Positions 1,888-45,795 of a DNA stretch of 58,551 nucleotides are shown here, one piece after another (the first letter of the stretch is position 1; each line of letters starts with the position of its first letter). The translations under genes were made by a program, and so were the position numbers. The stretch spans positions 1 to 58,551 of the forward strand of contig CALUUP010000010.1 in NCBI GenBank assembly GCA_944323985.1, read 5' to 3'. A model generated the notes under the pieces. It saw only the letters and a list, made by a program, of their open reading frames with translations. It did no database searches and was not told where the DNA came from. The DNA comes from Candidatus Gastranaerophilales bacterium (lineage in GTDB: Bacteria > Cyanobacteriota > Vampirovibrionia > Gastranaerophilales > Gastranaerophilaceae).

Positions 1888-1901
1888 TAAAAATTTATTA
1901 G

Positions 1902-1940
1902 AAAAAAGCTCATATCCTTTATAAGATATGAGCTTTTTTA
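1902..1940 (+). terminator. Terminator of the alcohol dehydrogenase gene
   Basis: A 15-bp perfect stem (1902-1916 with 1925-1939) has an 8-nt loop, an A-run on the left and a T-run on the right. It lies 15 nt after the stop codon and looks bidirectional. Confidence 0.85.
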
Positions 1941-1987
1941 TTTACAAAAAATTTAGATTATGTGATAATAAAAAGAAAGTTGAATAT

Positions 1988-2036
1988 GGTCGTTTGGCGG
2001 GGGTAAATGAAAACCGCAAAGCGAAAATTTTCACTA
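1988..2036 (+). repeat. Broken tRNA 5'-end fragment A with palindromic tail
   Basis: GGTCGTTTGGCG (1988-1999) matches the first 12 nt of the tRNA at 2137 with one change. It is followed by a short nested inverted repeat: TGAAAA (2009-2014) with TTTTCA (2028-2033), enclosing CGC-AAA-GCG. It is the weakest of the three fragments. Confidence 0.45.
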
Positions 2037-5963: not shown

Positions 5964-8072
5964 CTATCTTTTAGCCGTTTCAACTTTTACCATCCCAACG
6001 GATTTAACTTTTACATTAGGACTTATTTCATTATAAGACATAATTGCAATTTGCGGATATGTTCTTTCTACAAGTTTTCTAAATAATAATCTAATAGGAG
6101 AAGAACATAAAATAACCGGTTGATTACCTGTAGCTGTAATAGCTTTTTCTAATTCAACATTCATTTTATCAAACATATTTCTTGTGAAACTTGGGTCCAA
6201 TGTAACACTTTGTCCATCTGGGCTTGCTCCTTTTGCTATTGTATTTTCAACATCTGGAGCTAATGTTATTACATATAATTCGCCAGTATCTGCAAGATTT
6301 TGTTTACAAATGTTTCTAGAAAGTGCTTGGCGAACATGTTCTGTTAAGAAATTAGGATTTTTATTTATTTTAGCTTGCAAGCTTATTGTTTCTAAAATAG
6401 TTTTTAAATCTCTTACAGCAACGCCTTCTTTTAAAAGGTTTTGCATAACTATTTGAACATCTCCTATTGAAACATCTTTCATTATATCGTTTACATAATC
6501 TTCTGACACTTCTTTTTTCAAATTATCAATTAGTTGTTGAACATCAAATCTTGAAATTATTTCTGAAGCACATTTTTTAATAACTTCTGTAATATGAGTA
6601 GAAATAACCGCTGACGCTGATACAACAGTGTATCCAGACATTTCAGCCAAATCTTTGTCTTTTGCTTCAATCCATAAAGCTGGAAGTCCAAAAGCAGGTT
6701 CAATAGCATGAATTCCATTTATAGCAAGGTTCCCAACAGGATCTCCTGCACACATTGCTAAATATCTCTCAGGATAAACATCTCCGGATTCTAAAGCAAC
6801 ACCTTTAAGTTTTATTTGATATGAGTTTGGGGAAAGCTGTAAGTTGTCTCTAACTCTAATTGAAGGTAATACTATTCCTAAATCTAGAGCCGTTTGTCTT
6901 CTAATTTGAGCAATTCTTTCCAATAAATCACCTCCCATTTCTACATTTAAAAGTTGTACTAAACGATAACCAACTTCAATTTCAATTGTATCAATGTTAA
7001 GTAATTCCATTACGCTTTCACGGGTAGCTTTTGCTCTTTTCTCTTTTTTTCCTAATTTTTCTTGCTGTTCTTGGGCGATTTTTTCTGCTTCTTGTGTCTG
7101 CGCAACAACTTTTTTATTTTGAATTTTAAAATAAGCTAAGCCACCGGCAACAGCTGCTATTGTTAAGAAAGGTATCGTCGGCATGCCTGGAACTATACCC
7201 ATAAATGCTAATAACCCAGCTACAACACCAAGAACTCTCGGATCAGAAAACATTTCATTTTTTATATCTTCTGATAGTGATTCATCTTTACCTGTCGCTC
7301 TAGAAACAATTAAACCTGTTGCTGTCGAAATTAATAATGCAGGTACTTGAGAAACTAAACCATCACCAACTGTTAAAATTGTGTATGTTGAAAGCGCTGT
7401 TTGAATATTCATATGTAATTGTACAACGCCGATAATCAGACCTCCTACAATATTAATGATTGTTATTACAATACCTGCAGTTGCATCACCTTTTACGAAT
7501 TTCGAAGCACCATCCATAGTACCGTAAAAATCGGTTTCTCTTTCTAATTTACGTCGTCTTTCTTTTGCTTGATCTTCATTTATTAAACCTGAATTTAAAT
7601 CAGCGTCAATACTCAATTGTTTACCCGGCATTTTATCCAATGTAAATCTTGCAGAAACTTCAGCAACACGAGTAGCACCGCCTGTGATAACCATAAAATT
7701 AATTAATACCAAAATACAGAAGATAACAGCTCCGACAACATAATTCCCACCGACTACGAATTCTCCGAAGGAATTAATTACATTGCCTGCTTCACCATTC
7801 AGTAAAATTAAACGTGTTGAGCTAACATTCAAGCCTAATCTAAATAATGTAGCGATCAAAAGCACTGTTGGAAAAGATGAATAGTCTAGAGGTTCTTGAG
7901 TATATAAACATACAAGTAGTATAACAACCGCAAGTGAAATATTTACTGTTAGTAATAAGTCTAATAGAGCTGCAGGAAGTGGTATTACCATCATGCAGAC
8001 AATAACAACTAAGCCTATTGCTAGGACTATGTCATTATTACTCAGTAGTTTTGATAATTTTCCTAACTCCAT
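5964..8072 (-). CDS. flhA: Flagellar biosynthesis protein FlhA
   Basis: Export-gate membrane protein of the flagellar type III secretion system. It has 702 residues, a normal length. About eight hydrophobic helices occupy residues 15-330, with the conserved loop ARFTLDKMPGKQLSIDADLN (about 140-160), followed by the large cytoplasmic domain that docks chaperone-substrate complexes. The ribosome site AGGAG precedes the ATG. It has its own predicted promoter (8114-8142), because an unrelated gene separates it from flhB. Confidence 0.97.
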   Translation of the reverse strand: MELGKLSKLLSNNDIVLAIGLVVIVCMMVIPLPAALLDLLLTVNISLAVVILLVCLYTQEPLDYSSFPTVLLIATLFRLGLNVSSTRLILLNGEAGNVINSFGEFVVGGNYVVGAVIFCILVLINFMVITGGATRVAEVSARFTLDKMPGKQLSIDADLNSGLINEDQAKERRRKLERETDFYGTMDGASKFVKGDATAGIVITIINIVGGLIIGVVQLHMNIQTALSTYTILTVGDGLVSQVPALLISTATGLIVSRATGKDESLSEDIKNEMFSDPRVLGVVAGLLAFMGIVPGMPTIPFLTIAAVAGGLAYFKIQNKKVVAQTQEAEKIAQEQQEKLGKKEKRAKATRESVMELLNIDTIEIEVGYRLVQLLNVEMGGDLLERIAQIRRQTALDLGIVLPSIRVRDNLQLSPNSYQIKLKGVALESGDVYPERYLAMCAGDPVGNLAINGIHAIEPAFGLPALWIEAKDKDLAEMSGYTVVSASAVISTHITEVIKKCASEIISRFDVQQLIDNLKKEVSEDYVNDIMKDVSIGDVQIVMQNLLKEGVAVRDLKTILETISLQAKINKNPNFLTEHVRQALSRNICKQNLADTGELYVITLAPDVENTIAKGASPDGQSVTLDPSFTRNMFDKMNVELEKAITATGNQPVILCSSPIRLLFRKLVERTYPQIAIMSYNEISPNVKVKSVGMVKVETAKR

Positions 8073-8085
8073 TCTCCTGCTTGCC

Positions 8086-8099
8086 TAAATTGGCATTCT
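8086..8099 (-). other. Small hairpin in the flhA leader
   Basis: TGCC-6 nt-GGCA (8086-8089 with 8096-8099) lies in the 5' leader of flhA, between two purine-rich GGAG sequences. It might mask or present ribosome sites; it is too short to claim more. Confidence 0.3.
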
Positions 8100-8113
8100 C
8101 CTCCACCAAGAAT

Positions 8114-43303: not shown

Positions 43304-43414
43304 TTTATACTCCCATTTTTAAGTATTATATCATAATTTTAATAAATCATAAATTTTAAAAGTTACTTAATGCTTGATATATTTTTTTTAGGAGTTTAAA
43401 ATAAAAAAAATTTG

Positions 43415-43558
43415 ATATGAGGAAACATTGGTGAAATTCCAAGACTGTGCCGCAGCTGTGAAAGTCAGAATGCTCTTTAGATATACAAAATTGCGATTCA
43501 CGGTTTTGTAAAGACTTTCCAAGCTGCGGTGTGTTTAATAGCAAGGAAAGTTTTAATT
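43415..43558 (+). promoter_or_regulatory. Cobalamin riboswitch controlling the downstream two-gene unit
   Basis: The B12-box core is visible: GAGGAAACATTGGTGAAATT (43419-43438) followed by CC, then ACTGTGCCGCAGCTGTGA (43444-43461) and GTCAGA (43464-43469). The L5 loop CCGCAG (43450-43455) is exactly complementary to CTGCGG (43524-43529) in the loop of the last hairpin. That hairpin is a 10-bp stem (43511-43520 with 43545-43554) whose 3' arm contains the ribosome site AAGGAAAG (43543-43550). Ligand binding should lock the kissing loop and block translation from the TTG at 43559. Confidence 0.9.
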
Positions 43559-44251
43559 TTGGCAAATGCTGTACCACAAGTGAATAAAGCTACATCTGGA
43601 CTATGTCCTCACGGATTGCCGCCAAGTGCTTGTCCGATTTGTTCTAATATTGGTGGCGGTTCTATGAGAGTTGGCGAAAGACCTCAAAAAGCTGGGGAGA
43701 TGAGTTATCATCAGTGTGCGATGATTGGTGCAATGATGAAAGCTAGGGCTTTGAGATTAGAAAATCATGAAAAATATCTTCAACAAAGAGCGGAGTTTAT
43801 TTTACAATTTCAAAATAATCTTGAAAAAATGATATATAATTTGAATGAATTTGTTAATAAATTTTCAAATAACTTTTTTTTTAAACCTGTTAGTTATACA
43901 ATTGCTAATATCGTCGTACCAGTTTTGAATTTTATAAGAAATATCCCTAATATTATTTCTAATTTTCAAGAACGTTTATTTCAATTAAAACAAAAAATTA
44001 TTGATATTCAGGATAAATTAAATGCAATTTTTGGTGAAGTAAAGCTCTTTATACAAAAAAAAATCGGAGAAATAGTTGCGGGTATCAAAAATAAATTTGA
44101 GCGCCTTTTTAGGGTTTTTCAAAGGGATAATACAAGTGATCATGATACAAAGATTGATGAAGATAAGAAATTATTTAATTTAAGAACAATGATTGGAAAA
44201 TTTTTAAATCGAAAGAAAAAGGATGATTCAGAAAATAAATCAAGATTTTGA
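43559..44251 (+). CDS. Unknown protein under cobalamin riboswitch control, CPHG-CPIC motif
   Basis: 230 residues. Unknown function. The N-terminus has GLCPHGLPPSACPICS (about residues 14-29), spaced CPHG-x6-CPIC like a small metal site. Long amphipathic helices follow (about 60-190), with a hydrophobic stretch SYTIANIVVPVLNFIRNIPN near 115-134, and a charged tail. I start at TTG 43559, 8 nt after the AAGGAAAG site inside the riboswitch; an in-frame GTG at 43529 is inside the riboswitch. The next gene overlaps it by 29 nt. No resemblance to BtuB, BtuCDF, Cbi/Cob enzymes or MetE. Confidence 0.8.
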   Translation: MANAVPQVNKATSGLCPHGLPPSACPICSNIGGGSMRVGERPQKAGEMSYHQCAMIGAMMKARALRLENHEKYLQQRAEFILQFQNNLEKMIYNLNEFVNKFSNNFFFKPVSYTIANIVVPVLNFIRNIPNIISNFQERLFQLKQKIIDIQDKLNAIFGEVKLFIQKKIGEIVAGIKNKFERLFRVFQRDNTSDHDTKIDEDKKLFNLRTMIGKFLNRKKKDDSENKSRF

Positions 44252-45749
44252 TTCGAATATTCATAGAAAAAATATGACTAATACTCAAAAACGTAATGAT
44301 TCTAATCTAAAAGAAGGGGTCATAGTAAATTCTTTTGTGAAGGATCCTCTGATGGAAGGACTTAAAGCCGGAAGTTATGATAGTTTTACTAATACATTTA
44401 CACCTTTAAATGAAACGATTGATACTTTAATAATATCGAATTCTAAAATTGATCTGCCATCTAAACTTTTTGAGAATGATGAAAAAGTTTTAAATCCGGT
44501 GTTTCCATTATGTTTAGCAACTGTTGGTGTAATGGGAATATTTGGAGGTTTTACTGCGCTGATGAAAAAGTTTTCTAAGGGAAAGTTAGAATCAACAAAA
44601 GAATATTTATTGCCAGGTATTACAAGAAATCATTGTATAAATGATGAAATTCATCAAAGTATTTTTAGTGTGATTCAATCTCCTAATAGAAAAACTATAT
44701 TGGCGTCAATAGGTGTTATTACTCTTGGAGCAATGGCTTTCATGGGAAAAACTTTTATTGACGGTTTTAAAGAGGTATGGGTTAAAAAGCAAGAAGCAGA
44801 TATTCAAAAAAATCTTCAAGAAGATTTAATTGATGTTGAAACTCAATCTTTTTCAGGAAAAATTCAAATTATTAGAAGTATGTTAGCTTCTAAAGCTGAA
44901 ATTTTTTCAAATGAATTATCTTTTAAAGCATCAAATAATGATAATAGCGGTGAGAGAAAAGATAAATATAAAATGTTAGTTTTAGGCGTATTTTCTTTGT
45001 TGTCAATATTGGGCTTGGGGTATTATGCTATAAGAAATATAAGAAAAAGTGATGAATATATAAATAATGGTATAAAAAATACAAAATTAGGAATTGATAA
45101 AGTTATTGAAGATTTTAATAACGGAAAGAATTTAGATAATATTCAAGGGCATTCAGGAGAATTGTTATCTGGCAAAGATGCTTATAAATATTTAATAGAA
45201 AATATGCTGGAAAGTATTTATGCTTCTCCAGAAGAGGTTAAATTTTATGTTAGTAAAATGAATATTCAAGAAAATGAAAAGAAAGAATTTGTTAAATATT
45301 TAAATGAAAGTATGAATCAAGCTACTGAAAAAGTAAATGCTGCTATTGGAGGGTCTGGACGTAATAAGATTACGTATTTTTCACACGTTAATGATTATTT
45401 GTCGTTTTTTTATGATTGGTTAATGAATCCGAAGAATCCACAATTTAAAAATTTATTTATAGGAATAGCTGGCATTTCTGCGTTAGCCTATTCTGGTAAG
45501 GCGGTTGCTGAAGCTATAAAAGAAGTTCAAGTTAAGAAATATAATGCTGCAATAGAATTAGATTTGCAAAGAAGACTTGTGGCTACTGAATTAAGAAATT
45601 TTAAGGCTAAAAAAGAGTCTGCTATTGAACCTTTATGTGATGAATTTTTAAAACAGAAGAAAGAAGGAAAATCTAATAGCGAATTGAAGATTATGGCTGA
45701 TAATATACTTTTTGAAATAAAGAATGGTCCTCCGTTTGTATATTCTTAA
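44223..45749 (+). CDS. Unknown membrane protein with internal duplication, second gene of the riboswitch unit
   Basis: 508 residues. About four hydrophobic helices: residues 93-112, 158-174, 252-270 and 414-432. Two segments repeat a pattern: GKTFIDGFKEVWVKKQEADI (about 174-193) and GKAVAEAIKEVQVKKYNAAI (about 429-448), each after a hydrophobic helix and followed by a Leu/Glu-rich helix (LQEDLIDVE; LQRRLVATE). I recognise no family. Start is uncertain: ATG 44223 overlaps the previous gene by 29 nt; ATG 44274 lacks a ribosome site. Translation is probably coupled to the first gene and so also B12-responsive. Confidence 0.75.
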   Translation: MIQKINQDFDSNIHRKNMTNTQKRNDSNLKEGVIVNSFVKDPLMEGLKAGSYDSFTNTFTPLNETIDTLIISNSKIDLPSKLFENDEKVLNPVFPLCLATVGVMGIFGGFTALMKKFSKGKLESTKEYLLPGITRNHCINDEIHQSIFSVIQSPNRKTILASIGVITLGAMAFMGKTFIDGFKEVWVKKQEADIQKNLQEDLIDVETQSFSGKIQIIRSMLASKAEIFSNELSFKASNNDNSGERKDKYKMLVLGVFSLLSILGLGYYAIRNIRKSDEYINNGIKNTKLGIDKVIEDFNNGKNLDNIQGHSGELLSGKDAYKYLIENMLESIYASPEEVKFYVSKMNIQENEKKEFVKYLNESMNQATEKVNAAIGGSGRNKITYFSHVNDYLSFFYDWLMNPKNPQFKNLFIGIAGISALAYSGKAVAEAIKEVQVKKYNAAIELDLQRRLVATELRNFKAKKESAIEPLCDEFLKQKKEGKSNSELKIMADNILFEIKNGPPFVYS

Positions 45750-45752
45750 TAT

Positions 45753-45795
45753 AAAAAAGAGCTAAAATCTATTAAGATTTTAGCTCTTTTTTTTT
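45753..45795. terminator. Strong terminator after the riboswitch-controlled unit
   Basis: An 18-bp perfect stem (45753-45770 with 45775-45792), 4-nt loop, with A- and T-runs. Ends the two-gene unit on the plus strand and the rubredoxin unit on the minus strand. Confidence 0.9.

Follow-up and report, generated by a model that had tools for sequence, protein, structure and literature searches.

Introduction

In a 58,551-nucleotide stretch of DNA from a Gastranaerophilales bacterium (hereafter, the window), a candidate cobalamin riboswitch precedes two genes, p1 and p2, whose products resemble no recognised protein. The locus therefore raises the question of what a B12-responsive leader controls in this organism. 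Communities of the gut and the rumen are shaped by the exchange of B12. In most prokaryotes that depend on B12, the membrane proteins responsible for import are unidentified (PMC6072759). In the known corrinoid riboswitches, the ligand favours the kissing loop and the P13 hairpin, which conceals the ribosome site (PMC9600662, PMC10653944). Another case of a corrinoid riboswitch preceding a gene whose function is uncertain is the Mycobacterium tuberculosis ppe2 B12 riboswitch (PMC11260477); the protein and the organism are unrelated to P1-P2 and their host. Here, we evaluated the leader, the two proteins, and their distribution among 57 related genomes.

Materials and methods

Riboswitches were searched with the Rfam models at the gathering cut-offs, which are 36.5 bits for AdoCbl-II (RF01689) and 31.5 bits for the canonical Cobalamin family (RF00174). 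For covariation analysis, 33 leaders of the host genus were aligned by sequence only, and each pairing was compared with controls in which the pairing was slid by 1-3 columns. The targets of the AdoCbl-II elements of the order were named by reading the sequences.

The phylogenetic profile covered the same 57 genomes and scored the BtuC-type FecCD permease (PF01032), NrdJ, the MetH cap domain, CbiC, and CbiQ/EcfT (PF02361). MetH was scored by its cap domain, and one copy was confirmed as MetH. Weak FecCD matches of 21-28 bits (G034, G045, G052, and a second match in G040) were left out of the count.

Results

The leader contains an AdoCbl-II aptamer and a concealed ribosome site

The Rfam gathering search returned an AdoCbl-II match at 43409-43483 on the forward strand (44.5 bits, E 1.7e-7), above the cut-off. 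It is the only riboswitch in the window and the only RF01689 match in the 1.86-Mb host genome. The canonical RF00174 model gave the window copy 25.5 bits, under its cut-off, which some order-level P1 leaders do pass. Judged from its sequence, the cobalamin riboswitch is genuine; the original prediction was right about the cobalamin type, and the class is AdoCbl-II, not the canonical family. The features of the locus are listed in Table 1.

Table 1. Features of the riboswitch-P1-P2 locus (window coordinates).
Feature	Position	Strand	Remarks
Promoter-like sequence TTGATA-17-TAAAAT, just 5' of the aptamer	43374..43402	+	10/12 matches; consensus match only
AdoCbl-II (B12) riboswitch aptamer	43409..43483	+	RF01689, 44.5 bits, E 1.7e-7
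L5 side of kissing loop, GCCGCAGC	43449..43456	+	pairs kept across 33 leaders, with compensatory changes
Linker hairpin H1, AAAATTGCGATTCACGGTTTT type	43485..43509	+	85% paired vs 30-48% slid; extra, conserved
P13 5' strand ACTTTCC, pairing with the Shine-Dalgarno	43514..43520	+	84% paired vs 53-70% slid
L13 side of kissing loop, GCTGCGGT	43523..43530	+	pairs kept across 33 leaders
Shine-Dalgarno AAGGAAAG (43543-43550), within P13 3' strand GGAAAGT (43545-43551)	43543..43551	+	from sequence; conserved in leaders
P1, 230 aa, TTG start; N-terminal CPHG-x5-CPxC, then Gly-rich motif, remainder helical	43559..44251	+	conserved start; no family
CPHG...CPIC motif coding region	43604..43642	+	one per genome, only in P1
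P2, 508-aa membrane protein, C-terminus EIKNGPPFVYS, 29-nt overlap with P1	44223..45749	+	hydropathy; no family
P2 repeat R1, residues 161-223: membrane span and long amphipathic helix, VDGxKEIWVKKQEADIQ	44703..44891	+	hhalign
P2 repeat R2, residues 411-474, pattern as R1 (EAIKEVQVKKYNA)	45453..45644	+	hhalign
Inverted repeat, perfect 18-nt, then T-run	45753..45792	+	likely terminator

A six-base L5/L13 complement had been proposed at 43450-43455 and 43524-43529. It is exact and in fact longer, with CCGCAGC (43450-43456) facing GCTGCGG (43523-43529) in seven Watson-Crick pairs plus one G-U. Among the 33 genus leaders, 90% of the cells at the kissing pairs are kept, compared with 19-57% in the slid controls. 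At 43455/43524, 14 leaders have G-C and 8 have A-T, a compensatory change, and two pairs of the interaction carry double changes. The retention over the slid controls and the compensatory changes show that the pairing is not due to chance. The last hairpin, P13, pairs 43514-43520 with 43545-43551 and takes in the Shine-Dalgarno AAGGAAAG; the pairing is kept in 84% of cells, compared with 53-70% in the slid controls, in agreement with the earlier placement of the ribosome site within this hairpin. The conserved kissing loop and the hairpin concealing the Shine-Dalgarno both support the anatomy of translational repression that had been proposed, and, by analogy with the known corrinoid riboswitches, the leader would be of a translational, repressing design.

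The linker hairpin H1, which lies between the aptamer and P13, shows compensatory changes at 9/9 pairs tested in the 33 leaders. Its loop is of the CG-A(G/T)TCA type in the genus leaders. H1 resembles the shorter TACCTCGAGACAGGAG platform hairpin of the nrdD and metE riboswitches of the order, from which it may have descended. In the window copy alone, the P13 5' strand together with L13 could pair with the aptamer core over almost its full length, as it does in the minimum-energy fold. Across the genus, this pairing is kept in 46% of cells, no better than the 23-48% of the slid controls; an anti-aptamer switch was therefore rejected as the general mechanism.

P1 and P2 belong to no known family

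The TTG start of P1 at 43559 is common to 17/19 relatives, in some of which upstream stops fix its position. In the N-terminal motif, C16, H18, G19, C25, P26, and C28 are invariant across the order. The motif occurs once per genome and in P1 only, and its reading as a domain common to other proteins was rejected on this basis. Long helices are predicted for the rest of P1, and hydropathy gave no membrane span.

The P2 reading frame begins 29 nt before the end of P1, so the genes overlap, and the inverted repeat with its T-tail at 45753-45792 is likely the terminator closing the two-gene unit. By a simple hydropathy threshold, P2 has three to four hydrophobic spans, with four in the window copy, and its homologs have two to four by the same threshold. 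Comparison of R1 with R2 (hhalign probability 98%, E 3e-13) reveals an internal duplication, each unit of which consists of a span and an amphipathic helix with the pattern KExxVKKxxA. Column identity in P2 averages 77%, and the C-terminal EIKNGPPFVY is nearly invariant among the homologs. P2 has the appearance of an integral membrane protein. An obvious signal peptide is missing from both proteins, and the "storage" or "surface" role suggested at first is not favoured by these features.

Neither protein gave a significant match in Pfam, NCBIfam, or PDB sequences, as expected from the original description of two unrecognised proteins that are neither a known B12 transporter nor a known B12 enzyme. 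The weak matches in the family searches look like coiled-coil noise. The same searches returned no enzyme signature and no similarity to the B12-independent isozymes MetE and NrdD. AlphaFold models had mean pLDDT values of 62 (P1) and 54 (P2), and Foldseek on these low-confidence models gave no match at E<=0.001. Fold was left out as evidence for these two reasons. A phage or plasmid origin was rejected, since phage, plasmid, and viral-contig collections held no P2 relative.

The pair and its leader are conserved across the order

Related contigs are labelled Candidatus Gastranaerophilales or Melainabacteria, many from rumen and gut, and the host is a gut or rumen Gastranaerophilales bacterium. 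P1 and P2 were found in exactly the same 48 of the 57 relatives, including 33 of the 34 genomes of the host genus. The one genus genome lacking the pair (G024) also lacks the riboswitch. A cobalamin riboswitch lies directly 5' of P1 in 46/48 pair-bearing genomes (RF01689 or RF00174 match in 33/33 genus genomes with P1 and in 13/15 others), with leader matches counted at E <= 0.001 per genome and some of them below the Rfam gathering score. That relatives would carry the pair together with the riboswitch, which had been put forward as a check, is thereby borne out, and P1-P2 constitutes a new gene family, specific to the order and predicted to be controlled by B12. In G038, the P1 leader contains a divergent AdoCbl-II element (L130:4557-4664) that scores 20.9 bits, below the threshold, and seems to carry an insertion in its P4 loop. 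The P1 leader of G051 gave no riboswitch.

In families f5-f7 (L130, L131, L132, L122, and L141), a third gene of about 170 aa (153-184 aa) lies 10-20 nt 3' of P2. Its product has a conserved EEIGGAILDYL-type end and no Pfam family. The host homolog is on contig C8, adjoining prepilin-peptidase-like and sigma-factor-like genes. An extended operon was rejected as not diagnostic because the third gene adjoins P2 in f5-f7 and is elsewhere in the host.

In genera of the order other than that of the host, AdoCbl-II elements lie in front of btuB-btuC-btuD-btuF, metE, nrdD-nrdG, cobT, and a porin-cbiM unit, and such targets mark this riboswitch class as one of genes for acquiring or sparing B12. No target other than P1-P2 was found in the host genus. 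Two other elements have unusual contexts. At L126 (G050:C221, riboswitch 8028-8107, minus strand), the ORF behind a metE-type riboswitch is MetE-like for its first ~25 residues and then continues as a radical-SAM-like protein; through an apparent deletion, the metE leader has come to lie on another gene. At L112 (G036:C126, riboswitch 1899-1993, minus strand), the sequence behind an AdoCbl-II/cobalamin riboswitch contains a ~60-aa ORF and the gene of a radical-SAM protein that resembles a peptide maturase, and a B12-regulated peptide product is possible.

The distribution of P1-P2 is largely complementary to that of BtuC and CbiC

Since draft genomes can miss genes, the following counts are subject to incomplete assemblies: BtuC or CbiC occurs in 7/9 genomes without P1-P2 and in 2/48 with it (Fisher p=5e-6 by genome). 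By genus, the figures are 6/6 and 1/11 (Fisher p=6e-4), the fairer value because relatives are not independent. The pair is absent from 3/3 CbiC genomes and from 4/6 BtuC genomes, and g7 is the only genus with both BtuC (as BtuBCDF) and P1-P2. P1-P2 and known B12 acquisition (BtuC or CbiC) are thus nearly mutually exclusive, which is a new observation. The pair is present in all genomes that combine NrdJ or MetH with the lack of both BtuC and CbiC (17/17), so that its distribution is complementary to BtuC/CbiC in B12-requiring genomes; nine of these 17 also lack CbiQ/EcfT. Outside the host genus, EcfT/CbiQ occurs in 8/15 P1-P2 genomes.

The 34 genomes of the host genus contain no FecCD permease, no EcfT/CbiQ, no NrdJ, and no CbiC. 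NrdJ is kept by nearly all other genera of the order. MetH is found in only 4/34 genus genomes and not in the host; both NrdJ and MetH are missing from 29/33 pair-bearing genus genomes. The host genome was read to 93%; within this portion, NrdD and NrdG are present, and BtuB, MetE, QueG, BtuR, and SbmA/BacA gave no match, so that B12 supply via SbmA/BacA was rejected for the host on that reading. Radical-SAM proteins with B12-binding-like domains occur in genus genomes and are possible remaining corrinoid users in the host. With no other recognisable B12-dependent enzyme and none of the above acquisition genes, the earlier view of the host as a "B12-scavenging bacterium" is unproven. The conservation of the aptamer and kissing loop implies that corrinoid must reach the cytoplasm by some route, and from the retention of a covarying riboswitch in 33 genomes it follows that P1-P2 must be responsive to corrinoid. 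Such a riboswitch in a genus without known routes gives the best grounds for suspecting an entry route so far unrecognised and, at the same time, the main grounds for caution over the purpose of P1-P2.

Discussion

We propose that P1 and P2 form a module of two genes for acquiring corrinoids (B12), repressed through an AdoCbl-II riboswitch, a reading that we hold with about even confidence and that draws on regulation and distribution. The co-occurrence of the two genes in 48/57 genomes, the riboswitch 5' of P1 in 46/48 of these, and the B12 need reported by the same riboswitch class in the order, through btuB-btuCDF, metE, nrdD-nrdG, cobT, and cbiM, support this reading. So do the anti-correlation with BtuC/CbiC, with the pair present in 17/17 B12-enzyme genomes lacking both, and the internal repeat of P2, as repeats of this kind are common in transporters. 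Several observations count against it: there is no transporter homology and no significant fold match (from low-confidence models); the P1-P2 unit contains no ATPase, outer-membrane receptor, or periplasmic binding protein; 29/33 pair-bearing genus genomes have neither NrdJ nor MetH; g7 has BtuBCDF alongside P1-P2; and the G051 leader lacks a riboswitch. The "new uptake system" of the original prediction thus gains independent support from the phylogenetic profile and none from similarity to any transporter. The locus behaves like a B12 uptake locus in its regulation and distribution, and the comparisons made with known transporters did not place the pair among them.

In such a module, the folded aptamer could let L5 kiss L13, supporting P13, whose 3' strand is the P1 Shine-Dalgarno. 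Judging from known riboswitches, corrinoid binding would stabilise the kissed state and block P1 translation, and P2 translation would be blocked alongside through the overlapping start; corrinoid scarcity would lift the block. The invariant Cys/His motif of P1 possibly binds a metal or the corrinoid cobalt. The phylogenetic profile suggests that P2 and P1 may bring corrinoids into the cell or pass them on, and that the module would act in lineages with neither B12 synthesis nor BtuCDF.

The leader shares with AdoCbl-II riboswitches an aptamer above the curated cut-off and an L5-L13 kissing loop, and with the translational corrinoid riboswitches a hairpin that conceals the Shine-Dalgarno. It differs in the extra conserved hairpin H1 between aptamer and P13 and in governing genes that, as far as searched, had no earlier B12 link. 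In this order, the BtuB-BtuCDF operon is likewise governed by AdoCbl-II elements, and its genome distribution is complementary to that of P1-P2; however, P1-P2 lacks a TonB-dependent receptor, FecCD permease, ATPase, and binding protein and has no sequence similarity to the operon products. ECF-type cobalamin transporters (EcfT/CbiQ module) are another vitamin-uptake route and co-occur with the pair in the 8/15 genomes mentioned above, but the whole genus lacks them, as do nine B12-requiring P1-P2 genomes. The argument for the solitary B12 transporter BtuM was of the same kind, in that a small membrane protein occurs where genomes lack an ECF module, and in BtuM a cysteine can serve as cobalt ligand (PMC6072759); cysteines are available in P1-P2 too. 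BtuM is, however, a single protein resembling ECF S-components; P1-P2 is a pair for which the Pfam, NCBIfam, and PDB sequence searches detected no similarity, and its Cys motif resides in P1, which has no membrane span. As to an S-component-like fold of the BtuM type, with the cobalt-ligating cysteine in the membrane protein, Foldseek and PDB sequence searches gave no significant match, although the models used were of low confidence. That P1-P2 is an undescribed class of corrinoid importer, one unrelated to BtuCDF, ECF, and BtuM and at work throughout an order of non-photosynthetic relatives of the cyanobacteria that live in the gut and lack the known routes, is a tentative proposal.

Acquisition is the most likely function, ahead of a response to B12 shortage and then of corrinoid handling. 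A pair that replaced or compensated for a B12-needing function, as metE and nrdDG do, for example in the envelope or in redox, would fit the control of those genes by the same riboswitch class in the order and the persistence of P1-P2 in a genus that lost NrdJ. Lineages without a B12 supply would also be expected to keep B12-independent substitutes, which would produce the same anti-correlation with BtuC/CbiC. Such a role is nevertheless unlikely, given the lack of an enzyme signature in P1 or P2 and the covarying riboswitch in 33/33 P1 leaders, which is not expected of a cell without a corrinoid route. More doubtful is a role in which the P1 Cys/His residues bind cobalt and P2 acts as a tether, for storage, decyanation, or delivery to a corrinoid protein. 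The invariance of C16, H18, C25, and C28 and the precedent of cysteine as a cobalt ligand in BtuM (PMC6072759) agree with it, as do the radical-SAM proteins with B12-binding-like domains in genus genomes without classic B12 enzymes, but zinc explains the CxH...CxxC plus Gly pattern at least as well, and it would be unusual for a storage protein to be repressed by what it stores.

Two further readings are less likely still. The riboswitch may have been co-opted to read corrinoid as a sign of the gut community while P1-P2 does an unrelated envelope job; most of the genus is without classic B12-dependent enzymes, and the long helices of P2 are typical of scaffolds (low-confidence model). We regard this as improbable because the pair goes with the lack of alternative acquisition routes in the 17 genomes that truly demand B12. 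Relic status in a lineage that lost B12 use would match the loss of NrdJ, BtuC, and CbiC genus-wide and of MetH in most of the genus, but is highly improbable: compensatory changes are kept in the aptamer, kissing loop, and Shine-Dalgarno hairpin; P2 retains its average identity and nearly invariant C-terminus; and the pair is present in 33/34 genus genomes.

Corrinoid acquisition remains the preferred reading, at the strength given above. In the order, the gap left by 17 genomes that have B12 enzymes without BtuC or CbiC coincides with a conserved orphan pair under the control of a B12 riboswitch.
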